Below, in pieces: positions 7,152 to 30,656 of a stretch of DNA of 63,879 nt. The stretch comes from a virus. The stretch covers positions 1 through 63,879 of the IMG/VR virus record IMGVR_UViG_3300021425_000033, one strand, 5' to 3'. Position 1 is the stretch's first letter. Each line of letters begins with the position of its first letter. The notes beneath the pieces are model-generated. The model was given only the letters and a program-made list of their open reading frames with translations. It was not told the origin of the DNA and made no database searches. The position numbers were made by a program, and so were the translations under genes.

Positions 7152-7538
7152 ATGCAATATCTCAAGCACTATTGGATTCACGCACACTCTGGCACTTATT
7201 GCTGTGAGGACAATCCTGTTGAAAAAAGACATCCAGAAAAGGAATTTCCTGGTCTTGATGTAAGAATCTGGATGCACGATGAGAATGGAATTGATGTATG
7301 TCTTTCCAGAGTTCCTGATGGTGTTACAATTACTGATGTAATTGACGATCATAATGGCAAAAAGGTCGTGCAAAAACTGACCGAAGCAGAATTCAATTCA
7401 GTTCAAACTCCACTTACTGAGTCACAAACACTTCGTCAGGAAGCACAACAAGAGACTGATGAAGTTCTCAAGGCAGAAAAAGAGGCAGCAGCAGATTCTA
7501 AGTTTGAAGAAGCAAGACAGGCACTTTTTGCTCTTTGA
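7152..7538 (+). CDS. Conserved hypothetical protein
   Basis: A 128-aa protein driven by a late promoter and closed by a strong terminator, so it is a single-gene late unit. The N-terminus (about residues 1-60) is a compact, aromatic and His-rich domain ('LKHYWIHAHSGTYCCED'). The C-terminal 50 residues are Glu/Ala/Lys-rich and likely a helix or coiled coil. I do not recognise a function. Because of late expression next to fibre genes it may be a virion or tail-associated protein; that is inference. Confidence 0.75.
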   Translation: MQYLKHYWIHAHSGTYCCEDNPVEKRHPEKEFPGLDVRIWMHDENGIDVCLSRVPDGVTITDVIDDHNGKKVVQKLTEAEFNSVQTPLTESQTLRQEAQQETDEVLKAEKEAAADSKFEEARQALFAL

Positions 7539-7595
7539 GACACTTCAAAAACTGGCACACCATAACCCCACAGTGACCCTGTGGGGTTTTATAGT
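7537..7595 (+). promoter_or_regulatory. Early promoter of the dyad-box family (unit 1)
   Basis: Half-site GAGACAC at 7537, box CTGGCACAC at 7552, -10 TATAGT at 7590, 27 bp before the ATG at 7617. The -10 overlaps the T-run of the terminator. Confidence 0.55.
7564..7590 (+). terminator. Rho-independent terminator
   Basis: A 10-bp perfect stem AACCCCACAG / CTGTGGGGTT with a 5-nt loop, followed by TTTTAT. Confidence 0.92.
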
Positions 7596-7616
7596 AGGTA
7601 CATCAGCAACCAAAGG

Positions 7617-7718
7617 ATGTATTCAAGTTTAGACCGACTGATTTTCGTTGGTTCATTTATGATTCTAATGAACTGGGGAGTTCGTCTTACTAATTCAATC
7701 CTGAATTCTTTATTCTAA
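7617..7718 (+). CDS. Small membrane-spanning peptide
   Basis: 33 aa with one hydrophobic segment ('LIFVGSFMILMNWGV'). ATG lies 27 bp from a -10 box, the same spacing as in other early units, and the stop overlaps the next ATG (TAATG). Function unknown. Confidence 0.5.
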   Translation: MYSSLDRLIFVGSFMILMNWGVRLTNSILNSLF

Positions 7719-8146
7719 TGCACTGGTTAGACATCACAGGATACAATGCTCGTAAGAGAAGAGTAGAATCTGTTGTAGGGTGGTTCTTAGACACTTACCT
7801 TCCCAGACATCACATAACCATTGAAATCCTTCACAGAGGACTTCGTAGGGAGGAATCTTATGGTTATTGTTCAGTCTCTGGGGACATTTATAGACCCCGT
7901 GAGTTTCTTATTGAAATTGATCCCAAACTTGATCTGGAACTTTACACTAAGACCATCATACATGAGTTGATTCATCTTCGTCAATGGGTTCAAGGAACAC
8001 TTAAAGAACGCAGAGGAAAGATGTATTATAAGAACATCAATTGTGATGATCTTGATTACTGGGAACTTCCTCATGAGATTGAATCTCACTCACTTGAACA
8101 AATGTATTATGAGGACTACTTGACAGATACCCATCAAACCGTTTAG
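7718..8146 (+). CDS. HExxH zinc metallopeptidase-like protein (SprT/zincin type)
   Basis: A 142-aa protein with 'HELIHLRQ' at residues 82-89, the zinc-binding HExxH helix. A downstream Glu/His cluster ('ELPHEIESHSLEQ', about residues 115-128) can supply the third ligand. Size and layout fit minimal SprT/WSS1-like or phage zincin proteins. The Tyr- and His-rich C-terminus is probably regulatory. It is translated with the 33-aa membrane peptide (TAATG overlap). A second, different HExxH protein occurs at 26764. Substrate unknown; possibilities are host protein turnover or DNA-protein crosslink removal. Confidence 0.75.
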   Translation: MHWLDITGYNARKRRVESVVGWFLDTYLPRHHITIEILHRGLRREESYGYCSVSGDIYRPREFLIEIDPKLDLELYTKTIIHELIHLRQWVQGTLKERRGKMYYKNINCDDLDYWELPHEIESHSLEQMYYEDYLTDTHQTV

Positions 8147-8195
8147 AATACCTTTGTTGGGTTTGAAGATAAAACTCTAAGATCTTAAAGACATT

Positions 8196-8795
8196 ATGAA
8201 ACTTATCGAACTCACACATTCCTTTCAGTATCGTTGCACCGAAGATTTTAAGCATCAACTTGCATCTTCAGGATCTCTGCAGAATCTTACGAAGATGATT
8301 GCTGAACAGTCGAATACAATGAATCCTGACCAATATGACCCATTGAAGTATCGTGGTGATGCTTTTGAATGGTTTGCTGAGTTCTTTTTTAAGTTCTTTG
8401 ATGGTGATAATTTGTTTTTGAATATGACTGATTATAAACCAACAAAAGCATCTGGTGATTATGGTGTAGATGGAGTTGCAAGATATACTAAAGATCTAAG
8501 TAAAGTTGTATGTTTGCAGCATAAGTTTAAATCAAATCGTTCAAAGAAATTATCATCCAAAGAAGATAATCTTTCTAATTTTGGTGTGAATGCAGTAACC
8601 AAATATTCTTGTGAGATTGATAAAAAATATCTGATCGTATTCACCAATGCATCAGGTATTGAACGTACTACTAGTGAAGGAATCTTTGGTGGATGTATTA
8701 CTTGTATCAATGGAGAAATGATTTCAAGGTATATTGATACTAATCAAGCATTCTGGGATTGCTTTGTAAGGTCAGTTCCTAGGCTGTCCACCTGA
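8196..8795 (+). CDS. PD-(D/E)XK restriction-endonuclease-like protein
   Basis: A 199-aa protein with the restriction-endonuclease fold signature: E58 in 'RGDAFEWFAEFF', D92 in 'GDYGVDGVARY', and Q108-x-K110 in 'VCLQHKFK' (a Q-x-K version of the E-x-K site, as in Mrr-type nucleases). It precedes a DNA methyltransferase and an SF2 helicase, each with its own early promoter. Together they look like a dispersed restriction-modification or DNA-processing set. A 9-bp inverted repeat ends the transcript. The catalytic call is good; the target is not known. Confidence 0.75.
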   Translation: MKLIELTHSFQYRCTEDFKHQLASSGSLQNLTKMIAEQSNTMNPDQYDPLKYRGDAFEWFAEFFFKFFDGDNLFLNMTDYKPTKASGDYGVDGVARYTKDLSKVVCLQHKFKSNRSKKLSSKEDNLSNFGVNAVTKYSCEIDKKYLIVFTNASGIERTTSEGIFGGCITCINGEMISRYIDTNQAFWDCFVRSVPRLST

Positions 8796-8800
8796 CCTTA
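8767..8800 (+). terminator. Inverted repeat at gene end (terminator-like)
   Basis: TAAGGTCAG (8767-8775) is inverted as CTGACCTTA (8792-8800), with the stop codon inside the second arm. There is no clear U-run; the next T-rich tract (CTTTTG) is 10 bp downstream. Confidence 0.5.
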
Positions 8801-8826
8801 CGAAACCCCTCTTTTGCTGCTATAAT
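8784..8826 (+). promoter_or_regulatory. Early promoter of the dyad-box family (unit 2)
   Basis: Box CTGTCCAC at 8784, TTACGA at 8798, -10 TATAAT at 8821 (17-bp spacer), ATG 28 bp after the -10 start. Confidence 0.75.
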
Positions 8827-8848
8827 ACATTCATAGTTTAAAACACCA

Positions 8849-9982
8849 ATGACTGCTACTCTTTCTGGTCCTTCGATTGCTGATCGTAAAAATCGTATTC
8901 GGGAAAAATTCAAAGCAGAAAATCATCAACCTGTTCCTGATAAACTGATTGAAAAAATTATTTTGGGGATAAATACTGAGTCTGAAGTTCTACTGGTTGA
9001 TGCTGGGTGTGTGATTGCACTCTCACTTATTGAGAAAGGACATAATCCAGATAAAATTTTTGTTGCAGAAAACTCTGATGGAGAATATATCAGGGTTGCA
9101 GAAAGACTTTCTGAAATTTATGGATTTCATCATATTCAAATTAATGCTGATAAAATGTCTCCGATTATGAAGTTTGATTATACTCTTGCAAATCCTCCTT
9201 TTAAGGGACAACTTCATTTGGAATTTCTTCAAAATGCATTGAAGACGTCTAAAAATGTAAGATTTATACATCCGTCTGGGTGGTTGTATCGCAATAATAC
9301 TAAATTGGAATCCGACGTTAAAAAAATGTTGGAAAATCGCCTTGTAAAGTTAACATTGTTTAATGGTAACTCAGTTTTTGAAGGAATGGAATTTCAATCT
9401 CCACTTGTAATTACTGAAGCATCTGAGAAATCAGACTCTTTTATTCTAGAGTACAAAACAAATGGTAATCAGTACAAACTGAATAGTATGAATGATCTTC
9501 CCTGTGGTTATTGGGAACCAACTCAAATTAACTTGGAACTAAAAGACTTCATTTATCAAGAAGCATCAAAACAAAGTCTTTATTCACTTTTTGGAACTCA
9601 TAGTGGAGGTTCATATCTGAATATTAATGAGGTTGTTGGACACCATTCTAAGGATTCTTCTTCCTTTTTTATGAGTGACTTTTATACTTTCTTCTACAGA
9701 AATAGTGATATGAATGGTTCTGCAATTCGGGAGAAAGTTGTTAATCTCAACACCGATCAAGAAAGAGATTATCTAGTTTCTTATCTGAAAACAAAATTTG
9801 CAAGATTTGCTCTTGCTTTGAATAAAGTAAACAGTTGGAACATTAGTAAAAGGTATCTGGAGGCAGTTCCGATTCCTTCTCTTGATCGGGATTGGGATGA
9901 TGATTCTGTTAAAGAATTCTATAAACTAACTGAAGATCAGTGGAATTCGATTAACTCTTTCATTCCCGATTATTATCTGTGA
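8849..9982 (+). CDS. N6-adenine DNA methyltransferase-like protein with NPPF motif
   Basis: A 377-aa protein. Motif IV 'FDYTLANPPFKG' (NPPF at 115-118) is intact. Motif I is degenerate: 'LLVDAGCVIAL' at 48-58 lacks the usual second Gly, though an acidic residue follows (E74, 'VAENSDGE'). The C-terminal half ends 'WNISKRYLEAVPIPSLDRDW', the pattern of type IIG/Eco57I-like target-recognition regions. The weak SAM-binding motif raises the question of independent activity. The short methyltransferase at 11528 has the opposite defect. It has its own TATAAT promoter. Expected product: a phage-encoded adenine methylase or a methylase-derived DNA-binding protein. Confidence 0.78.
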   Translation: MTATLSGPSIADRKNRIREKFKAENHQPVPDKLIEKIILGINTESEVLLVDAGCVIALSLIEKGHNPDKIFVAENSDGEYIRVAERLSEIYGFHHIQINADKMSPIMKFDYTLANPPFKGQLHLEFLQNALKTSKNVRFIHPSGWLYRNNTKLESDVKKMLENRLVKLTLFNGNSVFEGMEFQSPLVITEASEKSDSFILEYKTNGNQYKLNSMNDLPCGYWEPTQINLELKDFIYQEASKQSLYSLFGTHSGGSYLNINEVVGHHSKDSSSFFMSDFYTFFYRNSDMNGSAIREKVVNLNTDQERDYLVSYLKTKFARFALALNKVNSWNISKRYLEAVPIPSLDRDWDDDSVKEFYKLTEDQWNSINSFIPDYYL

Positions 9983-10036
9983 CAGACTGAGCACTGTCCA
10001 CTCTAGCACCCTGGACCTACTCTGGGGTGCTATAAT
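9979..10036 (+). promoter_or_regulatory. Early promoter of the dyad-box family (unit 3)
   Basis: Half-site GTGACAG at 9979, box CTGTCCAC at 9994, -10 TATAAT at 10031, ATG 28 bp downstream. The upstream dyad overlaps the methyltransferase stop. Confidence 0.75.
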
Positions 10037-11935: not shown

Positions 11936-11980
11936 ACTGCCCCTGACTCTGCCCCACTCTGCCCCACTCTGTCCTATAAT
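11921..11980 (+). promoter_or_regulatory. Early promoter of the dyad-box family (unit 4)
   Basis: Half-site ATGGACGA at 11921, box CTGCCCCTG at 11937, -10 TATAAT at 11975, ATG 27 bp after the -10. The box is weaker than in other units. The spacer holds two copies of TCTGCCCCAC. Confidence 0.6.
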
Positions 11981-12220: not shown

Positions 12221-12406
12221 ATGTTTTTTCTTCCAATTCTATTAGCATCACACATTCCACAAGACCTTTATCTTAGATGTGAGGATTATGAATGGTTGAA
12301 AGAAAGAGCTTTGAGTAGTGAAGTTCTTACTCTAAGTGAGAAGATTAATTTCATCACTCATTGGATGCATCATACAGATTCTAAATGTTTCGAGGACAAA
12401 GAATGA
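12221..12406 (+). CDS. Small hypothetical protein with hydrophobic N-terminus
   Basis: A 61-aa protein. The N-terminus 'MFFLPILLASHIP' could be a signal or a short membrane segment; the rest is acidic and helical. It overlaps the next gene by 4 bp (ATGA). Function unknown. Confidence 0.6.
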   Translation: MFFLPILLASHIPQDLYLRCEDYEWLKERALSSEVLTLSEKINFITHWMHHTDSKCFEDKE

Positions 12407-12597
12407 AAGACCAAAATTCAGTTCCAGATAATGAACCACAGGAAATTAAGTTCAATCGTGGTTTAGATTTATTTACAGAATCTGTTCTAAAACCAGACCC
12501 TGAACTTCGTAACTGTGCTCATAATCAAAAGTGTTATCACGAACTGATGTATATTCGTTCATATGTTCTTGACTATCTAAAAACACTTAGGCAATGA
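12403..12597 (+). CDS. Small hypothetical protein
   Basis: A 64-aa protein read from the ATG at 12403, which overlaps the upstream stop. An earlier ATG at 12385 lies inside that gene. It contains two Cys ('NCAHNQKCYHELMYIRSY') and a helical C-terminus. It is linked by ATGA to the next gene. Confidence 0.65.
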   Translation: MKDQNSVPDNEPQEIKFNRGLDLFTESVLKPDPELRNCAHNQKCYHELMYIRSYVLDYLKTLRQ

Positions 12598-18205: not shown

Positions 18206-20107
18206 ATGATAATATCCAGTCAGTTTAAAAAACTAACAAAAAAAGATATTTCTAAAATTTCGGACGATAAACTTAAAAATATCTTGACTATTTTCTCATC
18301 TAAGACTAATGAGGACGATATTGGGTACTTATTTAAAAGTTCTTTTTCCTTGAGGCAACGAGTATATATTAGATCAAAAGTTCTTCATGATTTTTCTTCA
18401 AGAAATGAAAACCAAAATATCACTGTTGATTTGATAGCAAAAACTATAAAGTCTACAATAGATGGGGAAGATTTAGAATCTCTTGGCAATGTAAACGATA
18501 TTAAAATACTTCTGAAAAAATATCTTTCCAATTATCAAAATAGAACAACAGTTGTCTATGGTACTTTATCAATTCTTGGTGAAGTTGTAACAATGTATGT
18601 TTGCAGTGAAAATTTACCAAAAGAAATGGATTTTTATGATTTTTTAGATCAAATTTATTTCTTAAAATGGCAACCAAATAGAAATTTAAATCATTTTAAT
18701 ATATATACCGACATTCCATTAAGTACCGAAAAAATTTCTTATATGTCGGCAATTTATGATAATGCAAAATATAATACAGGTTATTATGAATGGTTATATT
18801 CTGCATATTATAGTGCAAAGAAAATTATAGAAAAGTGTGGTAATGATGGCAAATCATATGAGTATTATCACGAATCTTCTGATTTTGTTAATTTTATAAA
18901 AAATCATTTTAAACAGGATAAAAATCGTTGCTTTACAATGATGGAAAACTATCAGAAAAGTGTTGGAAAAAAATTTTTTAGTGAATCTAATAAGTTATCT
19001 ACAGCAGACATTTATCTGGTGAAGAAGAATCAAAGACAAAATATTGAAAAAGCAATAAATCAAAAAGTAAAAATAGTAAATGATACTAAGATATTAAATC
19101 CAAGACATTATTTGGAATTGATAACTCAATTATATCGTGCAAAGATGATGTTTCCCGTTAGTTTGAAGCAGGTTAAAGTCAGCAATCCTCCATTTTCAAT
19201 ATTAAATTATAATTCCGTATATTTGCATGAAAATAAAGAAGATGATGATTGGTTTTTAACGGAAGTAAGATTTTTGATGCAATTATCAAAAAATAAACCG
19301 GAATTTGAAAAGTATTTGAACGACTTAATTTCGATAGAAAGTTTAACTCCAAATAATTATAAATTGTCACTGACTACACAATATTTTAATTTTACTTATA
19401 AAATTGAAAAACCAGGTAAATCAATTAAGCACTTGAATTATTTTATTGAGTTATTGCCAGGTGCTGGATCTGTTCTAATTAAACCAGGTAGACAAGGTGG
19501 ACCTTCAGAAACAACATCACAAACGGGGGAAGGTCAAGTAACTCTTAATGTTTTTAATGAAATGTCAAATCATCCCAGTTATAGATCTTCTTTTAATAGG
19601 GCATATCAAGAATTGATAAAAAATAGAATTAGCATTATTAATGAAATTGATGATAAAAACACCCAAGCAAAAACGATATTGAGAAAATCCAAACTTTTGT
19701 CAAAAGATGATTTTATTAAAATTATTGAATCTTTGAAAAATAAAACAAATAGATCTCGTTTCCTGATAAAATATGCAGATTATCTTATAGAAAAAGAAAT
19801 ACCATCAACTCTTACGCAAGGCATAAAAAACAAGTATAAGTTAATAAAACCAAGAAAAAGTGGAGATGTTGTTGCTGATAGAAATATAGATCAGTTTAGA
19901 AACTTGTTAATCAATATTGAATTCTTATATTTTTTATCTGCAAATCAATCAAATATCAAAGAATTGGTTAAGAAAAAAATAGTTATGAGCCTCCACTCCG
20001 CAGCATCTGGTAGAGGTTATTTGCTTTTATCGAGTTCGAGGATGGCAAGGGGAAAAGCATATTTGGATGATATTCAATCTGCTGTTACATTAAAAGTTGG
20101 AAGGTAG
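18206..20107 (+). CDS. Large uncharacterised protein in an isolated late unit
   Basis: A 633-aa protein, visibly more A/T-rich (Asn, Lys, Ile, Tyr) than the genes around it. No domain recognised with confidence. Features seen: helical N-terminal 100 residues, a central 'KLSTADIYLVKK' that resembles a 'xxADIyLV' strand found in some phage proteins with nuclease-like folds, a Gly/Ser loop ('LIKPGRQGGPSETT'), and a C-terminus 'GYLLLSSSRMARGKAYL'. A terminator and a late promoter lie directly upstream and the first dyad-type early promoter follows the stop, so it is a self-contained late gene embedded in the early region. That fits a transferred cargo gene. Possible virion-packaged or anti-host protein; not shown. 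Confidence 0.75.
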   Translation: MIISSQFKKLTKKDISKISDDKLKNILTIFSSKTNEDDIGYLFKSSFSLRQRVYIRSKVLHDFSSRNENQNITVDLIAKTIKSTIDGEDLESLGNVNDIKILLKKYLSNYQNRTTVVYGTLSILGEVVTMYVCSENLPKEMDFYDFLDQIYFLKWQPNRNLNHFNIYTDIPLSTEKISYMSAIYDNAKYNTGYYEWLYSAYYSAKKIIEKCGNDGKSYEYYHESSDFVNFIKNHFKQDKNRCFTMMENYQKSVGKKFFSESNKLSTADIYLVKKNQRQNIEKAINQKVKIVNDTKILNPRHYLELITQLYRAKMMFPVSLKQVKVSNPPFSILNYNSVYLHENKEDDDWFLTEVRFLMQLSKNKPEFEKYLNDLISIESLTPNNYKLSLTTQYFNFTYKIEKPGKSIKHLNYFIELLPGAGSVLIKPGRQGGPSETTSQTGEGQVTLNVFNEMSNHPSYRSSFNRAYQELIKNRISIINEIDDKNTQAKTILRKSKLLSKDDFIKIIESLKNKTNRSRFLIKYADYLIEKEIPSTLTQGIKNKYKLIKPRKSGDVVADRNIDQFRNLLINIEFLYFLSANQSNIKELVKKKIVMSLHSAASGRGYLLLSSSRMARGKAYLDDIQSAVTLKVGR

Positions 20108-20162
20108 GACACCTAAACAACTGGCACATTAAATGGCATTTTTCAAGAATCTGTGATAAATT
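20106..20162 (+). promoter_or_regulatory. Early promoter of the dyad-box family (unit 5)
   Basis: Half-site AGGACAC at 20106, box CTGGCACA at 20121, -10 TAAATT at 20157 (36 bp), ATG 27 bp after the -10. Confidence 0.5.
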
Positions 20163-20183: not shown

Positions 20184-20399
20184 ATGTCATTAGAACGAAA
20201 GTTTTTGGAATCTGAGTATGGTAAAGATGTCATAGATTTTTACCTAAAGAATGTCTCCAATAAATTGGATTACTTTTCAGTAAGATATTGCGAAGATATT
20301 AAAGAGGATCCTCAAGATACATATTCTTACATCTGGGATCCAATATCCAAATCTACATTTCTAACTGAAAATGAGATTGGTGATTTGGAGGAAGGTTGA
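20184..20399 (+). CDS. Small acidic hypothetical protein
   Basis: A 71-aa acidic protein ('RYCEDIKEDPQDTYSYIWD'). Single gene between two dyad-type promoters; the stop overlaps the next dyad. Function unknown. Confidence 0.65.
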   Translation: MSLERKFLESEYGKDVIDFYLKNVSNKLDYFSVRYCEDIKEDPQDTYSYIWDPISKSTFLTENEIGDLEEG

Positions 20400-20453
20400 C
20401 AATCTCAAAACTGGCACACAGTCTTGCCAAACCACCAGGATCTCCTGTATATT
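20395..20453 (+). promoter_or_regulatory. Early promoter of the dyad-box family (unit 6)
   Basis: Half-site GTTGACA at 20395, box CTGGCACAC at 20411, -35 TTGCCA at 20424, 18-bp spacer, -10 TATATT at 20448, then AAAAGAGTCAAA. Confidence 0.75.
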
Positions 20454-20477
20454 AAAAGAGTCAAAAACAAACCACTA

Positions 20478-20516
20478 ATGGCAACTCGTTCACGCATAGG
20501 AAAACTCACTGTTTAG
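20478..20516 (+). pseudogene. Remnant of a small cyanophage gene (MATRSRIGKL)
   Basis: A 12-codon ORF 'MATRSRIGKLTV' at the exact place where the gene of this promoter should start. The first ten residues match the start of a small protein family I recall from cyanophage early regions, normally much longer. The rest has been lost. It may survive as a leader peptide for 20569. Confidence 0.5.
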
Positions 20517-20568
20517 TCTTATGCTATCCAGAGCATTGGCACGAGTTAGAATATATCAAGAGTAGGAA

Positions 20569-20811: not shown

Positions 20812-20884
20812 AGACGCAATCTTCTGGGAAGAACATGTAAAGAAAAACCTGGATGCAGTGGACACTCAGATTACTGTCCACTGA
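20738..20884 (+). CDS. Small conserved protein overlapping the membrane-protein gene
   Basis: A 48-aa protein in a different frame, overlapping 20569 by 74 bp. 'YLKPKKKGYAKQTATFLKIE' then 'DAIFWEEHVKK' is a recognisable cyanophage small protein, so this is the real gene in the overlap. An extra ATG at 20735 is in frame. The stop lies within the CTGTCCAC box of the next promoter. Confidence 0.7.
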   Translation: MYRVNYLKPKKKGYAKQTATFLKIEDAIFWEEHVKKNLDAVDTQITVH

Positions 20885-20915
20885 TTTGACCACTGTCCCC
20901 CGATTCCTGTATATT
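20858..20915 (+). promoter_or_regulatory. Early promoter of the dyad-box family (unit 7)
   Basis: Perfect inverted half-sites GTGGACA (20858) and TGTCCAC (20875), -35 TTGACC at 20886, 18-bp spacer, -10 TATATT at 20910, then AAAAGAGTCAAA. ATG 30 bp after the -10. Confidence 0.85.
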
Positions 20916-20939
20916 AAAAGAGTCAAACAACTGACACCT

Positions 20940-21077
20940 ATGGATTATTTCATCAACGATCAACAAATTGAAGAACTGGTCAACTTTGATTATGTCTGTG
21001 AAGATCTTGCAGACTTGATTGAAGAAGAACAAGACTTCGGCATGAACGAATACCTCAAGTCCAACATTGATTACTGA
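20940..21077 (+). CDS. Small acidic hypothetical protein
   Basis: A 45-aa protein, very acidic ('DYVCEDLADLIEEEQDFGMN'). The ORF extends upstream through the promoter, but the ATG at 20940 is at the standard distance from the -10. Possibly a DNA-mimic-like or protein-binding peptide; speculative. Confidence 0.65.
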   Translation: MDYFINDQQIEELVNFDYVCEDLADLIEEEQDFGMNEYLKSNIDY

Positions 21078-21081
21078 TCTA

Positions 21082-21300
21082 ATGAATCCTCCCACCTCCA
21101 CTGTTAATGTCCTGCCTCATCTCAAAGAACTTCGTGAGAAGTGGAGGCAGCAAGATTTCCGACTCACTAAAGAACAGCAAGAAGAATATGATATTCTCTT
21201 GCAAGCACGTCGGGAACGTGTCAAATACTTTTACGACAACGGTTTGGTTCAAGTTGGTCCCAAAGTGACTAAAAAGGCACAAGAAGACCTGGACGATTGA
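21082..21300 (+). CDS. Small helical hypothetical protein
   Basis: A 72-aa protein, charged and helical ('LKELREKWRQQDFRLTKEQQ'). Same transcript as the 45-aa protein. The start at 21082 avoids overlap with the upstream stop. Function unknown. Confidence 0.65.
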   Translation: MNPPTSTVNVLPHLKELREKWRQQDFRLTKEQQEEYDILLQARRERVKYFYDNGLVQVGPKVTKKAQEDLDD

Positions 21301-21304
21301 ACAA

Positions 21305-21347
21305 GTGGCACAGAGGGTCTCCTGGAGGTCTCTCTGTGCTTTATATT
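21305..21347 (+). promoter_or_regulatory. Early promoter of the dyad-box family (unit 8) with terminator-like hairpin
   Basis: Box GTGGCACAG at 21305, -10 TATATT at 21342, ATG 27 bp downstream. Between them GCACAGAG (21308) is inverted as CTCTGTGC (21332), a long hairpin ended by TTTAT that can terminate the upstream transcript. Confidence 0.65.
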
Positions 21348-21368
21348 ATCTACATCAACGGAACACGA

Positions 21369-22562: not shown

Positions 22563-22762
22563 ATTACACCAGAGAACAACTAATTGATGCACTTCAACGG
22601 GAGTATGTGTTTCTCTGCCACGATGATTATGAACCATTTGAAGATATGACAGCAGAGGAACATTTCGAGTGGTTGCATACTCTATCCGATGAAGATCTGA
22701 TCGAAGGGACATGCACCGATGAAATATATTCTCTTAAAGAATATATGAATCACTGGGGGTAG
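22559..22762 (+). CDS. Small acidic conserved protein
   Basis: A 67-aa protein, ATGA-coupled to the helicase. Acidic with many His/Tyr ('FLCHDDYEPFEDMTAEEHFE', 'WLHTLSDEDL'). Coupling suggests a helicase partner, but no function is recognised. Confidence 0.7.
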   Translation: MNYTREQLIDALQREYVFLCHDDYEPFEDMTAEEHFEWLHTLSDEDLIEGTCTDEIYSLKEYMNHWG

Positions 22763-22763
22763 T

Positions 22764-22821
22764 GTGCCAGTTGGTCAAACTGTCCACTAATCTCCCCACT
22801 GGGATCAATCTTCTGTATATT
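22764..22821 (+). promoter_or_regulatory. Early promoter of the dyad-box family (unit 9)
   Basis: Half-site GTGCCAG at 22764, box CTGTCCACTA at 22780, -10 TATATT at 22816, then AGAACAGTCAAAGG. ATG 31 bp after the -10. Confidence 0.8.
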
Positions 22822-22846
22822 AGAACAGTCAAAGGAGCACAACCTC

Positions 22847-23398
22847 ATGCATCTCATCGACCATCTTGAAACCCAAGTCGAGTGGGGCAAAGTGTTTGGA
22901 ATCGTGGATTCTCTCTACACTGATCCAGGATTCTCTTCCAATGCTGATAATTTTGCCCGTGCAACTGCTGTTGAAAAAGCACTCGCAAAGTATTCTGGTC
23001 TCGTTCGTGTAGATCAGACTGGTTACGATTTTGTCTACAACGATGACAAGATTGAAATGAAAATGGGCAAGAATTTGTTCTTCAAACGTAAGGACATTCA
23101 TGCCACTAAGAAGTTCAAAGTCAAATCTTTTCTCAGTGAAAAGAAAACCGTTGAAGATTTCAGGCAAACTAAAACCTTCGACTACATGTTGGTGGTAGAT
23201 CTTACTGCTCGTCGTGTGGTAGTTGTTGAGGATGAGAAAGCACGATCTTTGTACCAAGAGGGTGCAGATGGTGCTATGATTGAACTGAAACTCGGTGATT
23301 ACTATGAGTGTGATCTTGGGAAGTTCAATGTAGTCAAACCTCCCACACTTTTGTCTGAAGGTATCAACAACGCAATCGAATCTTACCTGGAGTTCTGA
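22847..23398 (+). CDS. PD-(D/E)XK nuclease-like protein
   Basis: A 183-aa protein. E43 ('VEKALAKYSG'), D61 ('QTGYDFVYNDD') and E70-M-K72 ('KIEMKMGK') give the E...D...E-x-K layout of the PD-(D/E)XK fold. A further strand 'TFDYMLVVDLTARRVVVVED' fits the core sheet. It lies 3 bp before the ligase-like gene, so they form a two-gene unit. Distinct from the Q-x-K protein at 8196. Likely a DNA nuclease; structure-specific or degradative role unknown. Confidence 0.72.
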   Translation: MHLIDHLETQVEWGKVFGIVDSLYTDPGFSSNADNFARATAVEKALAKYSGLVRVDQTGYDFVYNDDKIEMKMGKNLFFKRKDIHATKKFKVKSFLSEKKTVEDFRQTKTFDYMLVVDLTARRVVVVEDEKARSLYQEGADGAMIELKLGDYYECDLGKFNVVKPPTLLSEGINNAIESYLEF

Positions 23399-23401
23399 TC
23401 A

Positions 23402-24289
23402 ATGAAAAACACACACTTGCAACACCCTGAAGATTCCATTCTGACTGGTGATCTTACCGTTCTGGATTGGTTCCTTGCTAAGAGTGATCTTTCCGTGAAG
23501 ATTGACGGTTCTCCCGCTATTGTTTGGGGCACCAATCCTGCCACTGGTAATTTCTTTGTCGGCACAAAATCTGTCTTCAATAAAGTAAAGATCAAAATCA
23601 ATGAAACGCACGATGACATTGATTGCAACCATTCTGGGGTTGTTGCTGATATTTTACACCACTGTTTTGATTGCCTTCCTAATTTCGACGGGATTGTTCA
23701 AGGTGATTTTATTGGTTTTGGTGGTGATGATACTTTTTGCCCCAATACGATTACTTATGTCTTTGATGAAATAATTGACCAGAACATTATCATTGCACCA
23801 CACACATTGTATGCAACTGATGATGAGATGAAGGACTGCTATGTTATCAATGACATGGTGGACATGGAGATCTTTGAAGACACTGAGATCTGCAAGTTCG
23901 TGCAACCTCGTGCATGGCAACTCGATGAAGATTTCTCTGAGATTGTTGGTTTTGCACGACAGATGTCCCAGTTGGTTACTTTCGTGAATGAGAAGGAAGC
24001 AACTGAATTGAAGAAGCAACTTAATGCTTGTATTCGTGAAGGACTCGAAGTTGTGCCTGAAACGTTCAACAACTCTCTGTTGATTAGTTACTGGTTTCTG
24101 ATCAAATCAATCAAGGAGGACATGCTCTACCTGTGTCGCAATAACGGTCCCGAAGCATACATCGGCAACGAACAATGTGGTGGTGAGGGTTATGTTCGCA
24201 TGAATGAGTTTGGTATGTTCAAACTCGTTAATCGTGAGCAATTCTCTCATGCAAACTTTAACAATGCGAAACATCAGTGTGCCAGTTGA
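23402..24289 (+). CDS. Nucleotidyltransferase / polynucleotide ligase-like protein
   Basis: A 295-aa protein with the covalent nucleotidyltransferase motifs in order: K33-I-D-G36 (motif I, the lysine that would take AMP), 'FDGIVQGDFIGFGG' (95-108, motif III region), 'GEGYVRM' (261-267, motif IV) and 'MFKLVNREQF' (272-281, motif V). Length and the 'KxDGSPAI' pattern match phage ligase-like proteins of poorly known substrate. It follows a nuclease by 3 bp, which suggests a cut-and-seal pair acting on DNA or RNA. The last codons run through the dyad of the next promoter ('HQCAS' is read from it). Confidence 0.78.
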   Translation: MKNTHLQHPEDSILTGDLTVLDWFLAKSDLSVKIDGSPAIVWGTNPATGNFFVGTKSVFNKVKIKINETHDDIDCNHSGVVADILHHCFDCLPNFDGIVQGDFIGFGGDDTFCPNTITYVFDEIIDQNIIIAPHTLYATDDEMKDCYVINDMVDMEIFEDTEICKFVQPRAWQLDEDFSEIVGFARQMSQLVTFVNEKEATELKKQLNACIREGLEVVPETFNNSLLISYWFLIKSIKEDMLYLCRNNGPEAYIGNEQCGGEGYVRMNEFGMFKLVNREQFSHANFNNAKHQCAS

Positions 24290-24336
24290 TTGAAGTGTCC
24301 ACTAATCTCCCCACGGGCATCGTTTCCGTGTATTCT
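24279..24336 (+). promoter_or_regulatory. Early promoter of the dyad-box family (unit 10)
   Basis: Half-site GTGCCAG at 24279, box GTGTCCACTA at 24295, -10 TATTCT at 24331, then ATAAGAGTCAAAGG. ATG 32 bp after the -10. Confidence 0.8.
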
Positions 24337-24362
24337 ATAAGAGTCAAAGGAACACCACTCAA

Positions 24363-24551
24363 ATGACGATCACCAAACAACAAGCACTTTCCCAGTTTCG
24401 TTACAACTGGAAAGTCATCACTATTGCACATCCTAAACTGAAAGGTGACATTGTTTGGAAACGTACAGAGTGGAATGACTTCACCGATGCACTCTGCAAA
24501 GAGGGTTACATTTCCGAGAATCAGTATAACACCTGGACTAATCCTTTCTGA
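24363..24551 (+). CDS. Small hypothetical protein
   Basis: A 62-aa protein rich in Trp and Thr ('FRYNWKVITIAHPKLKGDIV', 'WKRTEWNDFTDALCKEGYI'). First gene after its promoter. Function unknown. Confidence 0.7.
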   Translation: MTITKQQALSQFRYNWKVITIAHPKLKGDIVWKRTEWNDFTDALCKEGYISENQYNTWTNPF

Positions 24552-24578
24552 TTTCGTTCTCTTCCACTGATCAAACAA

Positions 24579-24926
24579 ATGACTGCAATGCTGACTCAAA
24601 CCAAACCTCAATTCTTGACTGATGCACTCATCGAAGTGCTGAACAGTGAGTGGAAAGTTAATTCCATTGAATCTGGTCACTCTTGTTATTACCAAGTTGA
24701 AGCAAAAGTCGGTCGTAAGTACACCAAACTGATGACTTATTTGGTTTCTGGTGGTGTTCGTCAACGTGGTCGTTCTGCTTACATGTTTGTAGACAATACC
24801 ACTGGTGCATGTTACAAACCTGCATCGGTTAAAGCACCCGCAAAGGGTATTCGTTGCTATATTGATCAACTGGCAGATCATCCTGATGCTTGTGATCAAT
24901 ACGGTTCTTTCCTCTACATTCGGTGA
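24579..24926 (+). CDS. Conserved hypothetical protein
   Basis: A 115-aa basic protein. The middle ('CYYQVEAKVGRKYTKLM', 'SGGVRQRGRSAYMFVDNTTG') is a beta-rich, Arg/Lys-rich domain, perhaps nucleic-acid binding. I recall homologues in cyanophage early regions without function. Downstream small genes follow within 5 bp. Confidence 0.72.
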   Translation: MTAMLTQTKPQFLTDALIEVLNSEWKVNSIESGHSCYYQVEAKVGRKYTKLMTYLVSGGVRQRGRSAYMFVDNTTGACYKPASVKAPAKGIRCYIDQLADHPDACDQYGSFLYIR

Positions 24927-24931
24927 TCAAC

Positions 24932-25132
24932 ATGCAATTCCAAGTTACACAAATCGAGTTCGACTTTGATGATGCTCTCCACCCCATGACTGAGGTGGAG
25001 ATGAGTGAAGTTTATGAAGATTACATTGGTACATTTTGGGAGGCAGATGACGGTGATGATCTAGTCGAAGAGATTACATCTGCATCTGGTTGGTGCATCA
25101 AGTCCATTGATTATCGTCACATCCTTAACTGA
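24932..25132 (+). CDS. Small acidic hypothetical protein
   Basis: A 66-aa protein from the ATG at 24932; GTG at 24923 overlaps the upstream stop and is an alternative. Highly acidic ('FWEADDGDDLVEEITSASGW'). Function unknown. Confidence 0.65.
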   Translation: MQFQVTQIEFDFDDALHPMTEVEMSEVYEDYIGTFWEADDGDDLVEEITSASGWCIKSIDYRHILN

Positions 25133-25133
25133 A

Positions 25134-25343
25134 ATGTACATTCCCCAAACTGACTGGAATCGCGGCACTTACCGTGAGTTGAAAGCACTCTTGAATGAGT
25201 TGCCTGAGCATTACCTGGACCAAACTGCAACGGTTATGTTATCAGATAGTGACGAATATACCGATATTCGATCTATTGGTTGGACTGGTCCTGCCTGTGA
25301 TGTGCTAGACTCTGATCACATGTTCTTCTCTATTAACGCCTGA
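25134..25343 (+). CDS. Small hypothetical protein
   Basis: A 69-aa protein starting one base after the upstream stop. 'TYRELKALLNELPEHYLDQT' then 'ATVMLSDSDEY' is a pattern seen in small phage proteins that keep a 'LN-LP...D..V.' core. Function unknown. Confidence 0.68.
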   Translation: MYIPQTDWNRGTYRELKALLNELPEHYLDQTATVMLSDSDEYTDIRSIGWTGPACDVLDSDHMFFSINA

Positions 25344-25348
25344 GATTC

Positions 25349-25537
25349 ATGAACACTGGTTACACTTTGAACCGAGTTGAGTTCACTCAAGACGAGGAAA
25401 CTTGCATCCTTAAGTTTCTTCGTGATGCACAAGAATGTGGGTATCCTAGTGCTAACGAACCATGGTATCCAGTTATTAACAACATCATGAGAAAGTATTA
25501 CGATTCAGACATCAAGGAGTATCAATTCCCCCAATGA
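25349..25537 (+). CDS. Small hypothetical protein
   Basis: A 62-aa protein ('RVEFTQDEETCILKFLRDAQ'). Helical N-terminal half. ATGA overlap with the next gene. Function unknown. Confidence 0.65.
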   Translation: MNTGYTLNRVEFTQDEETCILKFLRDAQECGYPSANEPWYPVINNIMRKYYDSDIKEYQFPQ

Positions 25538-25677
25538 AATGCGAAGTTAAATTGTATGTTGCTGGCAAAGTCTTCACTGAGGAAGTGTATGCCAAAAACT
25601 ACCAAGATGCAAGAGAAGTTGCACTTGCTCGCAATCCTAATGCAAAAGTGATAGGAGTGACAGCAAAGTTCAACTGA
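25534..25677 (+). CDS. Small conserved cyanophage protein
   Basis: A 47-aa protein. 'MKCEVKLYVAGKVFTEEVYA', then 'NYQDAREVALARNPNAKVIG', is a family I recall from many cyanophages: a beta-alpha-beta unit of unknown role. ATGA-coupled upstream. It is the last gene before a dyad promoter. Confidence 0.78.
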   Translation: MKCEVKLYVAGKVFTEEVYAKNYQDAREVALARNPNAKVIGVTAKFN

Positions 25678-25692
25678 GAGTATAAACAATGT

Positions 25693-25749
25693 GTGCCACA
25701 TGTATTAGTGGCACAGTAAAAGAGCACAAGCATCAATTTCCTGTATTCT
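25693..25749 (+). promoter_or_regulatory. Early promoter of the dyad-box family (unit 11)
   Basis: Perfect dyad GTGCCAC (25693) / GTGGCAC (25708) with an 8-bp centre, AGTAAAAGAGCAC, -10 TATTCT at 25744, TAAAGAGTCAAAGG. ATG 30 bp after the -10. Confidence 0.88.
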
Positions 25750-25773
25750 TAAAGAGTCAAAGGTTTTTCACCA

Positions 25774-26010
25774 ATGCAACTGACTTCTCAAGGACAATCC
25801 CGTGCAATGGTTGTTGAGTTTCGTCCTCACAACATTCTGACCGATAAGTTTGTTTATACTCTCAAGTTTATGGGAGATGAGCAAACCAAGTCGATGCGAT
25901 TGATGAGCAAGAAAGAAATGATTGAGACTGTCAATGCACGTCTTGATCTTAACTATGAGGTGACAGATTTCCTGACTGAACCTCAAGAATACTTCCCTTG
26001 TGCTTGTTAA
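25774..26010 (+). CDS. Small hypothetical protein
   Basis: A 78-aa protein with mixed alpha/beta pattern ('AMVVEFRPHNILTDKFVYTL', 'SMRLMSKKEMIETVNARLDL') and a C-terminal 'FPCAC'. First gene of its unit. Function unknown. Confidence 0.68.
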   Translation: MQLTSQGQSRAMVVEFRPHNILTDKFVYTLKFMGDEQTKSMRLMSKKEMIETVNARLDLNYEVTDFLTEPQEYFPCAC

Positions 26011-26055
26011 TTTGTGTCATTGATTAAAACCCACCTTCATACTCAACGAACAACG

Positions 26056-26205
26056 ATGTCTGAAGTTCTTGAACTGAATCAAGCAGAGATTCGTGCTCTG
26101 TTGGATCTCATTGAGTTTCATGATGATTGGAACGAAGTGAGTGAAATTGTAGGAGTAGATGTATCTGCTCTTTATGATAAAGTTTCTTCTTGTGTAACTT
26201 ACTGA
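26056..26205 (+). CDS. Small acidic hypothetical protein
   Basis: A 49-aa protein from the ATG at 26056. A GTG at 26014 would add 14 residues of less typical composition. Helical ('LNQAEIRALLDLIEFHDDW'). Function unknown. Confidence 0.6.
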   Translation: MSEVLELNQAEIRALLDLIEFHDDWNEVSEIVGVDVSALYDKVSSCVTY

Positions 26206-26240
26206 TTCAAATGATTTCCCTTCCTAATCCCACAAACAAA

Positions 26241-26453
26241 ATGACAATGAACGAGTCTGATCTTTTCACTCTTAAAGAGAACTATTGCAACCATATCATC
26301 GACGGGATGGATATGGATTGCCTTGTGCAGATGTGCCATGATTTGTTAATGGATGCATACCAAGATTGCACAGAGGAAGATCTGAAGGAAGAAATTGTGG
26401 ATCTTTATGATACTGAACTGTGGGAAGATTTGGTTGAAAGTGTAGAGAACTGA
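26241..26453 (+). CDS. Small acidic hypothetical protein
   Basis: A 70-aa protein. Start uncertain: ATG at 26211, 26241 or 26247; 26241 is chosen as it follows an A-rich stretch. Very acidic ('CTEEDLKEEIVDLYDTELWE'). Function unknown. Confidence 0.62.
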   Translation: MTMNESDLFTLKENYCNHIIDGMDMDCLVQMCHDLLMDAYQDCTEEDLKEEIVDLYDTELWEDLVESVEN

Positions 26454-26508
26454 ACCAGTTGGGGAAGTGTCACACTAAAAGAGCACTGCCCCCAATTTCC
26501 TGTATTGT
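26451..26508 (+). promoter_or_regulatory. Early promoter of the dyad-box family (unit 12)
   Basis: Degenerate half-site TGAACCAG at 26451, box GTGTCACACT at 26467, AAAAGAGCAC, -10 TATTGT at 26503, TAAAGAGTCAAAGG. ATG 32 bp after the -10. Confidence 0.8.
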
Positions 26509-26534
26509 TAAAGAGTCAAAGGTTTTTCACCGAA

Positions 26535-26762
26535 ATGACTGTCATCAACCAACCCCGAATCATCAACGGCACCGAATACCCTACTCCAACTGTTGATGGT
26601 ATGGACCGTTGCCAGATTAACACTCGTTTGCATTACATCAACGAAGAAATGTCTAAACTTCGTGCCACTCAAGAGGCACTGATTGAGATGCGTCAGCAAC
26701 TCGATCGTCACAACGAAATGCTGGAGATGGGTGATCTGTTCGATGAAATGTTCGGAGGTTGA
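26535..26762 (+). CDS. Small coiled-coil protein
   Basis: A 75-aa protein. The ORF runs upstream through the promoter; the ATG at 26535 is the first after the -10 at the usual distance. C-terminal two thirds is a coiled coil ('LHYINEEMSKLRATQEALIE'). One base separates it from the zincin gene. Confidence 0.68.
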   Translation: MTVINQPRIINGTEYPTPTVDGMDRCQINTRLHYINEEMSKLRATQEALIEMRQQLDRHNEMLEMGDLFDEMFGG

Positions 26763-26763
26763 G

Positions 26764-27132
26764 ATGTTATTTGTTTCTGGACAATCCCCTGATCTGAATC
26801 TCACTCATCAAGTGTATGAGTTCTTTACATCAAAGTACGAGATTACGAGAGATGTTGAGGTTTATCACACTGACTTAAGTGATGATAATGCCTTTGGATT
26901 TACAGAGGAGAATGGTGAAGAACAGTTTGTGCAGATTCATAACAATCTGAATCAGACTGACTATGTGATTACATTACTGCACGAACTTGTCCATGTTGTT
27001 CAGAATGAAAGAGGAGAATATGATGATGAAAAGAGAGAAGAAGAAGCATACAGAATGGAGGGAGTTCTTTATAGTGAGTTTCTCCACAGTTGTGAACAAC
27101 AATATGTGCCACATGTTTTAGTGGCACAGTAA
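26764..27132 (+). CDS. HExxH zinc metalloprotease-like protein
   Basis: A 122-aa protein with 'LLHELVHVVQNERG' (HELVH at 73-77) and an acidic 'REEEAYRMEG' (91-100) that can give the third zinc ligand. It is a minimal zincin, unlike the 7718 protein outside the motif. The ORF extends upstream out of frame with the coiled-coil gene; the ATG at 26764 is preferred. The last codons ('VPHVLVAQ') are read from the GTGCCAC/GTGGCAC dyad of the next promoter, so the regulatory element is also coding. Confidence 0.72.
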   Translation: MLFVSGQSPDLNLTHQVYEFFTSKYEITRDVEVYHTDLSDDNAFGFTEENGEEQFVQIHNNLNQTDYVITLLHELVHVVQNERGEYDDEKREEEAYRMEGVLYSEFLHSCEQQYVPHVLVAQ

Positions 27133-27162
27133 ATGAGCACAGTCCCCAATTTCCTGTATTCT
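27106..27162 (+). promoter_or_regulatory. Early promoter of the dyad-box family (unit 13)
   Basis: Perfect dyad GTGCCAC (27106) / GTGGCAC (27121), AGTAAATGAGCAC, -10 TATTCT at 27157, TAAAGAGTCAAAGG. ATG 30 bp after the -10. The dyad lies in the 3' end of the zincin gene. Confidence 0.88.
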
Positions 27163-27186
27163 TAAAGAGTCAAAGGAACACAACCG

Positions 27187-27417
27187 ATGCAAACCATCAT
27201 CCAACACACAACCAACCCGAAAGAGATTGAGATTGGTGTGGAGTTTTTTCTTCCTACAGATGCACCACACTGGATTCCTAATGGGTTTGAAACTATCAGT
27301 GCGATTGTTGATAGTGAGGACCATGATGATGATCCTATTGTTGTTGAGGATGAAATTGCAGAAGCATGGTGTAAATCTCAAGGTGTAGTTTTCTCTCAAG
27401 TTATCAACGAACCCTGA
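27187..27417 (+). CDS. Small acidic hypothetical protein
   Basis: A 76-aa protein, acidic ('VDSEDHDDDPIVVEDEIAEA'). First gene of its unit. The fold looks alpha/beta; function unknown. Confidence 0.66.
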   Translation: MQTIIQHTTNPKEIEIGVEFFLPTDAPHWIPNGFETISAIVDSEDHDDDPIVVEDEIAEAWCKSQGVVFSQVINEP

Positions 27418-27457
27418 GGTTCTTAATTAACATCAACCCCACTACATTTCTTTCATC

Positions 27458-27685
27458 ATGACTGCATCATTCACTGACGAACAGATCAATGCCCTTTGTT
27501 ATCAACCTTATTGGTACAATATGGGACTGGATGATCGTATCACACTGGAAGCAATTCTTAAAGAATACATTGAAGCAAACCCTGATGATATACTTGCCAT
27601 TGATGCAAAGTATCTTCTGGAAATTGTCCAAAATCCTATCTTCAAGAAGTACAAAGATGTGATTCATTGTGGAGTTTCTCACTGA
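27458..27685 (+). CDS. Small hypothetical protein
   Basis: A 75-aa helical, acidic protein ('FTDEQINALCYQPYWYNMGL', 'DDRITLEAILKEYIE'). Five bases before the next gene. Function unknown. Confidence 0.66.
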   Translation: MTASFTDEQINALCYQPYWYNMGLDDRITLEAILKEYIEANPDDILAIDAKYLLEIVQNPIFKKYKDVIHCGVSH

Positions 27686-27690
27686 AAATC

Positions 27691-27876
27691 ATGACTGCGT
27701 TTGTATCACCCAAGTCCAAAAAGGCAAAGAATCGATTCTGTAATCTGATGGAATCGAATCCTGAATGTATCATTGAACAGAACAAAGGTGATCGTGTCTT
27801 TCTACGATCACTCAATGGCAAAAACTTTTTCTGGGTTTCACTCAACAACGATTCTGATTGGAGCATTGAACTATGA
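27691..27876 (+). CDS. Small conserved protein, paralogue of 12002
   Basis: A 61-aa protein from the ATG at 27691; an upstream GTG lies inside the preceding gene. 'SPKSKKAKNRFCNLM' and 'VFLRSLNGKNFFWVSL' match the 12002 protein. ATGA overlap with the next gene. Confidence 0.72.
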   Translation: MTAFVSPKSKKAKNRFCNLMESNPECIIEQNKGDRVFLRSLNGKNFFWVSLNNDSDWSIEL

Positions 27877-28106
27877 ATCTCTACATCATCTCCGACGTTC
27901 TTTACGATTACACTTCTGGAATGTGTGTGATTGCTGCCGAATCTTTGCCCCGTTGTGAACAAATCTTTATGAAAAAGTTTGGAGATTCTACATCTTCTTA
28001 CATCAAAGAAAGTAAGCAAAAAGAGTTCAATGAAGCAGCAATTAAGGTGATTGAAAGTGTCAATCATCCTGAAGGTGTTGTGTCCTATGTTTATGGTGGA
28101 GGTTGA
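27873..28106 (+). CDS. Small hypothetical protein
   Basis: A 77-aa protein, alpha/beta ('YIISDVLYDYTSGMCVIAAE') with a Lys/Glu helix. ATGA-coupled to the previous gene. Function unknown. Confidence 0.66.
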   Translation: MNLYIISDVLYDYTSGMCVIAAESLPRCEQIFMKKFGDSTSSYIKESKQKEFNEAAIKVIESVNHPEGVVSYVYGGG

Positions 28107-28112
28107 GTTCTA

Positions 28113-28193
28113 ATGACTATCGGAATCTTTTTTCTCATTGGTTACATCATGGGTGCAAGTCAAGTGCTCATTGTTCGTCAGATTCTCAAGTAA
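28113..28193 (+). CDS. Membrane micro-peptide
   Basis: A 26-aa ORF with one transmembrane-like segment ('IGIFFLIGYIMGASQVLIV'). It lies in a tight gap between two genes. Small size makes it uncertain. Confidence 0.45.
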   Translation: MTIGIFFLIGYIMGASQVLIVRQILK

Positions 28194-28214
28194 TTTCCCC
28201 CACTCATTAAACTC

Positions 28215-28397
28215 ATGACTGACATTCAACAACATCAAGAGTACAACAAACTCCTAATCCTGATGGCAAGGGAACAACTGATGGAGGACATTGATTGTAT
28301 CATCACTGATTACTTTGCAGAGTACGATGTCAACTATGATGGTGAACTTGTGAAGATTTTGTGTGATGCTGTCTGCCGTAACTTCCCCACTAACTGA
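28215..28397 (+). CDS. Small acidic hypothetical protein
   Basis: A 60-aa helical, acidic protein ('QLMEDIDCIITDYFAEYDVN'). Its first codons (M-T-D-I-Q) and leader are nearly the same as those of the next gene, which suggests duplication of the start region. Confidence 0.65.
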   Translation: MTDIQQHQEYNKLLILMAREQLMEDIDCIITDYFAEYDVNYDGELVKILCDAVCRNFPTN

Positions 28398-28400
28398 ATC

Positions 28401-28586
28401 ATGACTGACATTCAAAAGGATACAATGCTTGCCAACATTCTGGAGCAAGTACACTCACAGATCATGTATTTGACTGAAGAAGGTAGACTTGATGATGCAG
28501 TTGCATTGTATGAAGAATGGGAAGAACATTTCGATGAGAGTATAATGGAAGTTCATGTGGTAACTATCAACAATTTGTGCCAATAG
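28401..28586 (+). CDS. Small acidic hypothetical protein
   Basis: A 61-aa helical protein ('YLTEEGRLDDAVALYEEWEE'). It starts M-T-D-I-Q like its neighbour. The 3' end overlaps the first half-site of the next dyad. Confidence 0.65.
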   Translation: MTDIQKDTMLANILEQVHSQIMYLTEEGRLDDAVALYEEWEEHFDESIMEVHVVTINNLCQ

Positions 28587-28633
28587 TTTTAGTGTCACAC
28601 TAAAAGAGCACAGGGATCTAAAACCTGTATATT
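28577..28633 (+). promoter_or_regulatory. Early promoter of the dyad-box family (unit 14)
   Basis: Half-site GTGCCAA at 28577, box GTGTCACACT at 28592, AAAAGAGCAC, -10 TATATT at 28628, AAAAGAGTCAAA. ATG 29 bp after the -10. Confidence 0.85.
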
Positions 28634-29679: not shown

Positions 29680-29687
29680 TATAACAA

Positions 29688-29974: not shown

Positions 29975-30044
29975 AGGGATTTATGATTAAAAATCAATTA
30001 AAAATGTATTATTAAATATGTTTTAATTGTTTATTCGTTTATGC

Positions 30045-30209
30045 TTATAGGCGCATAAAGTCTTAGAAAGCATAGAAGAATAGACGCATAATGTCTATAA
30101 ATGCCTTAGGAAATGTACTGAGTTCTTGTACTTAAGTCCCTTAAAATCCCTCAGGTTCTTGTACTTATGGTCTTATAAATGTACTGAGTTCTTGTTATCT
30201 AAGCCCGCA
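30045..30209 (+). repeat. 33-bp-period repeat array in non-coding DNA
   Basis: The gap 29975-30368 has no gene. GTTCTTGT occurs at 30122, 30155 and 30188, exactly 33 bp apart; units 1 and 3 share the 19-mer AAATGTACTGAGTTCTTGT. Upstream, GCATAA at 30053 and 30086 continues the same 33-bp period with more diverged units. The rest of the gap is A/T-rich and then C-rich, with no gene. Confidence 0.75.
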
Positions 30210-30292
30210 CTCTACCACAACCGCACAGAAATGTCAAGACCCCCAAGTATTTCCAAACCCCCACACATTTCCCAGAATACATAAGCAATTCA

Positions 30293-30300
30293 AATAAATA
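30293..30300 (+). promoter_or_regulatory. Possible late promoter box (AATAAATA)
   Basis: NATAAATA match 20 bp before a strong sigma70 promoter. It is 69 bp from the next ATG, further than other late boxes, so it may be chance or a second start. Confidence 0.3.
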
Positions 30301-30312
30301 CTCCCAACCTTA

Positions 30313-30341
30313 TTGACAGTTTCCTCCCAGCATCTTATAGT
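30313..30341 (+). promoter_or_regulatory. Strong sigma70-type promoter
   Basis: TTGACA at 30313, 17-bp spacer, TATAGT at 30336. It drives the gene at 30369. This is the best consensus promoter in the window and lacks the dyad box. Confidence 0.88.
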
Positions 30342-30368
30342 ATTCACATACACATCAGGAGAGCAATT

Positions 30369-30542
30369 ATGTCAGTTGCGTATCACCAGGCACAGAAAGT
30401 TAAGTATCGTGTCACCTTAGATCTTGAGGTGTTTAGTGATTTCGATCCACATCAAATGGACTGGGATAAAGTATTCAAGTTAGAACCTGCTGAGAAGTGT
30501 TCTGCATATGTTGAAGACCTTAGTACTCCTGACCGATGGTAA
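30369..30542 (+). CDS. Small hypothetical protein
   Basis: A 57-aa protein preceded by AGGAG and the strong promoter at 30313. 'KVKYRVTLDLEVFSDFDPHQ' then 'MDWDKVFKLEPAE' suggests a small beta-alpha protein. A strong promoter and good RBS predict high early expression, so a host-takeover role is possible. Function unknown. Confidence 0.72.
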   Translation: MSVAYHQAQKVKYRVTLDLEVFSDFDPHQMDWDKVFKLEPAEKCSAYVEDLSTPDRW

Positions 30543-30598
30543 TTGTGCAGGGGTTAGTATAAAGAACTAAGCACATTTTTTGCAGAATGGAGTGATTA

Positions 30599-30656
30599 GT
30601 GTGCGGAAATAATATTGGCACACGATATAGGCACGGGGGTCAAAATGCCCTATATT
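30599..30656 (+). promoter_or_regulatory. Early promoter of the dyad-box family (unit 15)
   Basis: GTGTGC (30599) is inverted as GCACAC (30618); box TTGGCACAC starts at 30615, -10 TATATT at 30651. The ATG (30703) is 52 bp from the -10, longer than in the other units. Confidence 0.55.

Follow-up and report, generated by a model that had tools for sequence, protein, structure and literature searches.

A dyad promoter class, probably used early, in T4-like cyanophages

Identification of the promoter class

Thirteen sites in a stretch of viral DNA of 63,879 bases (IMG/VR virus record IMGVR_UViG_3300021425_000033, called the window below) carry an inverted repeat, or dyad, at a fixed distance from a -10 hexamer. 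They probably form a single class of early promoters of T4-like cyanophages, at which a dimeric and probably phage-supplied activator would bind the dyad and work with the host sigma-70 polymerase. Among annotated phages, Synechococcus myoviruses (for example S-RIM8, S-RIM50 and S-H25) are the closest relatives of the window. T4-like cyanophages are among the commonest marine viruses, and MotA and AsiA are not at their disposal when they take over transcription. The control of early and middle genes in cyanomyoviruses was judged unclear in a 2010 review (PMC2984593).

The initial annotation of this DNA listed 15 promoters sharing a box written as (C/G)TG(G/T)C(A/C)C. All 15 box sequences were found at their coordinates, but the written consensus matched literally in only 8 of them and missed the remaining seven, because two box flavours, GTGKCAC(A) and GTGTCCAC, had been merged in it. 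The second flavour (CTGTCCA/GTGTCCA) is outside the reach of the corresponding regular expression. With eight matches among 15 boxes, the literal expression was dropped as the definition of the class, and a two-flavour matrix was used instead.

Viral contigs were gathered by two independent patterns, one consisting of the box and its spacing and the other of the -10 and the conserved tail downstream of it only. The matrix was trained on 140 sites in 82 loci from both contig sets, the window and the reference phages being excluded. In the contigs picked by -10 and tail only, 88 of the 130 sites with a start codon also had the box, 36-37 bp upstream of their -10, compared to just 2 of the 31 sites without a start codon. 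When this matrix, trained elsewhere, was applied to the 15 proposed family members, the dyad composed of the upstream arm S1 and the box arm S2 was recovered in 13 (17-28 bits), each with at most 0.033 chance matches expected per strand of the window; the sites at 11937 and 30615 fell outside the class (Table 1). Beyond the listed sites, only two + strand matches exceed 11 bits in the window, and the - strand matches are the same palindromes. A scan of shuffled sequence had been named as a check in the initial annotation; the shuffled and reversed window gave 0 matches at a threshold where the window has 10.

Table 1. Dyad promoters, embedded hairpins and excluded sites in the window
Feature	Position	Strand	Score
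Dyad promoter, box 7552, -10 TATAGT at 7590	7535..7595	+	24.6 bits, E about 0
Intrinsic-terminator hairpin ACCCCACAG...CTGTGGGGTTTT between box 7552 and -10	7560-7590		-16.5 kcal/mol
Dyad promoter, box 8784, -10 TATAAT at 8821	8767..8826	+	17.4 bits, E 0.033
Dyad promoter, box 9994, -10 TATAAT at 10031	9977..10036	+	17.1 bits, E 0.033
Embedded hairpin between box 9994 and -10	9999-10030		-15.3 kcal/mol
Non-member, -10 TATAAT, no significant dyad	11937..11980	+	4.6 bits, 24.6 chance matches expected
Dyad, box 20121, poor -10 TAAATT at 20157	20104..20162	+	20.3 bits
Dyad promoter, box 20411, -10 TATATT at 20448, AAAAGAGTCAAA tail	20394..20453	+	20.0 bits; 38.8 with -10
Dyad promoter, box 20874, -10 TATATT at 20910, tail; dyad near-perfect, GTGGACA/TGTCCAC	20857..20915	+	26.1 bits; 46.0 with -10
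Dyad promoter, box 21305, -10 TATATT at 21342	21288..21347	+	26.7 bits; 32.2 with -10
Dyad promoter, box 22780, -10 TATATT at 22816, tail	22763..22821	+	21.6 bits; 36.3 with -10
Dyad promoter, box 24295, -10 TATTCT at 24331, tail	24278..24336	+	22.2 bits; 39.3 with -10
Dyad promoter, box 25708, -10 TATTCT at 25744, tail; dyad perfect, TGTGCCAC/GTGGCACA	25691..25749	+	25.4 bits; 42.0 with -10
Dyad promoter, box 26467, -10 TATTGT at 26503, tail	26450..26508	+	28.0 bits; 44.9 with -10
Dyad promoter, box 27121, -10 TATTCT at 27157, perfect dyad, tail	27104..27162	+	23.9 bits
Dyad promoter, box 28592, -10 TATATT at 28628, tail	28575..28633	+	21.7 bits; 36.9 with -10
Non-member, box-like and -10-like sequence, no significant upstream arm	30615..30656	+	4.1 bits, 29 chance matches expected

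At the site with box 27121, a 63-bp stretch shares 90.5% identity with an unannotated part of phage S-T4.

Anatomy of the dyad and its distance to the -10

The dyad is 24-26 bp long and reads approximately TGTGNCAST-N7-8-STGKCACA, or ends in STGTCCAC. The existence of the half-site that had been noticed upstream of the box was confirmed, and its sequence is that of the box in reverse complement (core CAGT/CACT at -11). Arms S1 and S2 are thus inverted copies of a half-site of about ACTGKCAC(A), the distance between their centres being 16-17 bp, and the cleanest examples are those of P-TIM40 (TGTGACAGTTGGATTAGTGTCACA). When the -10 is placed at its usual -12 to -7, the dyad extends from about -65 to -41, with its centre near -53.

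The distance of 36-38 bp from box to -10 holds in all 13 confirmed window sites. Its conservation in relatives, also proposed as a check, was seen as a peak at 37 bp within a range of 36-39 bp. Among 192 dyads from ten cyanomyovirus sequences chosen blind to the -10, the distance from the start of the box to a TATAAT-like hexamer was 36 bp in 23 cases, 37 bp in 74, 38 bp in 23 and 39 bp in 29, other distances typically accounting for 1-6, and 136 of the 192 had such a -10 at 35-39 bp. Together with the operator sequence, this spacing rule lets probable early promoters be annotated in any cyanomyovirus genome.

The -35 region matched TTGACA at a mean of 3.1 of six positions (2.4 in shuffled sequence), and 5-6 matches were found in 14% of the promoters compared to 1.2% after shuffling. 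Most sites have a poor -35 and a dyad just upstream of it, and the minority with a near-consensus -35 might not need the activator. In the proposed mechanism, the -10 (TATAAT to TGTATTAT) would be read by the host RNA polymerase carrying its primary sigma factor, and a dimeric sequence-specific protein would occupy the inverted half-sites upstream of the mostly weak -35 and most likely activate transcription by touching the polymerase. The dyad might instead be the operator of a phage-encoded repressor by which early genes are shut off after a few minutes, the promoters being active without it. Some early shut-off is needed in phages devoid of AsiA and MotA, and the near-consensus -35s at 14% of the promoters agree with such a function, but the dyad lies entirely upstream of the -35, which is an odd position for a repressor, and the -35s are mostly weak, so that we consider repression unlikely.

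Comparison with known regulatory elements and timing of expression

A novel regulatory element of early genes was reportedly found in Syn9 and P-TIM40 by Doron et al. in 2016 (ISME J) and is said to be conserved among T4-like cyanophages. As Syn9 and P-TIM40 both carry the dyad promoter, the window sites were filed under this class, of which they are probably new members, matched by its general description and not base by base. The phage group is the same and both named phages have dyad promoters, whereas the dyad symmetry, the opposite-strand -10s, the embedded terminators and the negative results for host and podoviruses may or may not be part of the published account. The word "undescribed", used in the initial annotation for the factor acting here, is probably not supported in view of this element.

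Because the sites sit among clusters of tiny genes, whose expression this promoter class would drive, and in agreement with the literature, we infer that they are used early. A function as middle promoters appears quite unlikely. A putative middle promoter is indeed mentioned for P-SSM4 and Syn9 in the 2010 review, but the same source gives it as absent from P-SSM2 and S-PM2 (PMC2984593), both of which carry the dyad, and the sites group among tiny unknown genes and not mainly at replication genes.

The middle promoters of T4, served by the MotA box and AsiA, likewise have an activator box instead of a good -35 before a sigma-70 -10. The MotA box is located at -30, however, whereas here a dyad at -65 to -41 takes its place and there is no MotA or AsiA gene. 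Searches for the two proteins were positive in T4 (1/1) and negative in 10 of 10 complete cyanophage records and in the window fragment, in line with the earlier statement that the box is unlike the MotA box and that cyanomyoviruses generally lack both proteins.

The nearest working analogy is provided by the late promoters controlled by P2 Ogr and P4 delta, at which a small phage activator binds a dyad near -55 and the host sigma-70 polymerase is used. The location of the dyad and the proposed phage activator are alike, but the half-sites and their spacing differ (TGT-N12-ACA in P2 and P4), and those promoters are used late whereas the present ones would be early. The cyanobacterial NtcA (GTA-N8-TAC) and Pho (CTTA-N7-CTTA) promoters, which have been reported in cyanophages (PMC3037559), also have a regulator box upstream of the -10, but the half-site of the dyad is TGTGNCA and its centre is near -53, not at -41.5. 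Similarly, the column frequencies of the dyad sites contain none of the GTA/TAC arms of the NtcA promoter and show ACTGKCAC half-sites instead.

Embedded hairpins, covariation and the tail

Stable terminator-like hairpins are present in 24% of 143 box-to--10 spacers compared to 4% in shuffles, several of them being ordinary intrinsic terminators that belong to the gene upstream (window 7552, S-SKS1 22773 and 93437). Terminators of the upstream gene nested between the box and the next -10 were also seen at window 9999-10030 and at S-PM2 8589. Given these spacer hairpins, and arms that are able to pair, the inverted repeats could be thought to act as RNA, either as a hairpin ending the upstream transcript or as a processing site. 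This is highly improbable, as the arms show no covariation at their variable base (25/15/41/35, p=0.43), the -10 lies at a fixed distance and S2 is retained where S1 is weak. The lack of covariation indicates that each half-site is read as DNA and not as an RNA hairpin, and favours one protein contact per half-site. The agreement in flavour between S1 and S2 is not significant (p=0.13). A third, weaker element at the place of the -35, S3, is preferentially of the same flavour as S2 (p=3e-4), which may partly be a by-product of the embedded hairpins.

The tail AAGAGTCAAAGGA spans the likely start site and the Shine-Dalgarno region and represents a second conserved module, seen at the window promoters 20411-28592 and at many IMG/VR loci. 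The initial annotation had pointed to it as TAAAGAGTCAAAGG after the -10, and it is indeed common to many relatives. It is separable from the dyad, since the dyad occurs without the tail in P-TIM40, S-T4, S-PM2 and P-SSM2. The converse was observed at a few sites (loci L023, L153 and L154), where a -10 is followed by the tail without a dyad.

-10 hexamers on the opposite strand

When each dyad was counted once, 26 of 122 were accompanied by a -10-like hexamer on the opposite strand at the mirrored distance, compared to a mean of 10 in the other distance bins (p=5.5e-6), an excess that leans on P-SSM2 (8/15). At P-SSM2 66598/66607, a -10 is located at 37 bp on both strands, inside a gap without annotated genes. 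Mirrored -10s fit a symmetric DNA-bound activator, and their presence on both sides suits activation better than repression. We tentatively consider it possible that a cyanomyovirus-specific activator, virion-borne or made at once, is functionally symmetric, and that many dyads, chiefly those of P-SSM2, are transcribed both ways, giving antisense or unannotated small transcripts of the early region.

In the P-SSM2 record, two dyad promoters between 66280 and 66680 (loci L420/L539) point leftward into a 400-bp gap without annotated gene, and one of them shares its dyad with a rightward promoter. The gap possibly contains a small RNA or an unannotated early transcript.

Distribution among phages and hosts

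The dyad layout was found in all 9 reference cyanomyoviruses and in about 80 viral-contig loci. Strong dyad matches, for which both strands of one palindrome may count, numbered 11-27 in each of Syn9, P-TIM40, P-SSM4, P-HM2, S-PM2, S-SKS1, S-T4, S-RIM8 and P-SSM2 (40 kb), and 0-3 in shuffles. Syn9 and P-TIM40 have 8 and 10 forward promoter matches, respectively (reverse 0-1, shuffles 0), and their dyad promoters are mostly located in one small-gene cluster each. In contrast to these, the matrix scan detected 0 dyads in T4 and in the cyanopodoviruses P-SSP7, Syn5 and P60.

The dyad-binding protein could also be a host transcription factor whose native operator is copied by the phage. Such a factor would already be present when infection starts, and about 25 sites fitting a stricter palindrome pattern were found in 300 related cyanobacterial genomes versus about 5 for reversed-pattern controls. 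Genomes with matches numbered 5 of 151 and 19 of 300 among the relatives examined. Several observations render this origin rather improbable. The laboratory host WH7803, the one host genome scanned with the matrix (2.0 of 2.37 Mb, 85%), has no excess of dyads above 16 bits (5 versus 9 in shuffled sequence) and no match to the palindrome pattern. Moreover, the inspected host-side matches belong to a toxin-antitoxin-like pair, have a transposase remnant nearby or show no common gene context, and podoviruses that infect the same hosts lack the element. As the scanned part of the laboratory host genome has no regulon and the podoviruses have no such element, the protein more likely comes from the phage, either carried in the virion or made as an immediate product, than from the host.

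In two of the related cyanobacterial genomes (loci L408, 1501-2796, and L409), two similar palindromes 1.27 kb apart flank a PIN-like/HTH-like gene pair, which was identified by eye as a toxin-antitoxin-like module.

Candidate regulators

The defined operator, the spacing rule and the host range should allow the binding protein to be fished out with one DNA piece. A scan of 77 ORFs of the window for a regulator returned only a weak MazE match and no convincing DNA-binding domain. Syn9 gp230 (phrog_385), which is called a transcriptional regulator, is near-universal in cyanomyoviruses, and it matched no Pfam family or solved structure. Two tiny proteins, phrog_495 and phrog_516 (window 12385-12597 and 33120-33260), are conserved in all cyanomyoviruses tested, among them S-TIM5, with no match in T4, podoviruses or host. 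The three families are regarded as leads only.

Two further loci were noted. In the divergent myovirus S-TIM5 (locus L429), a diverged box, GTGGCCC, followed by AGCCCTGT, precedes TATACT-type -10s, and these boxes are clustered at 163-171 kb (163.8-170.9 kb). The GTDB contig NYUL01000008.1 (locus L250), named as Gammaproteobacteria, contains a psbA gene that shares 89% identity with its counterpart in phage Syn9; this contig may belong to a cyanophage and have been mis-binned.
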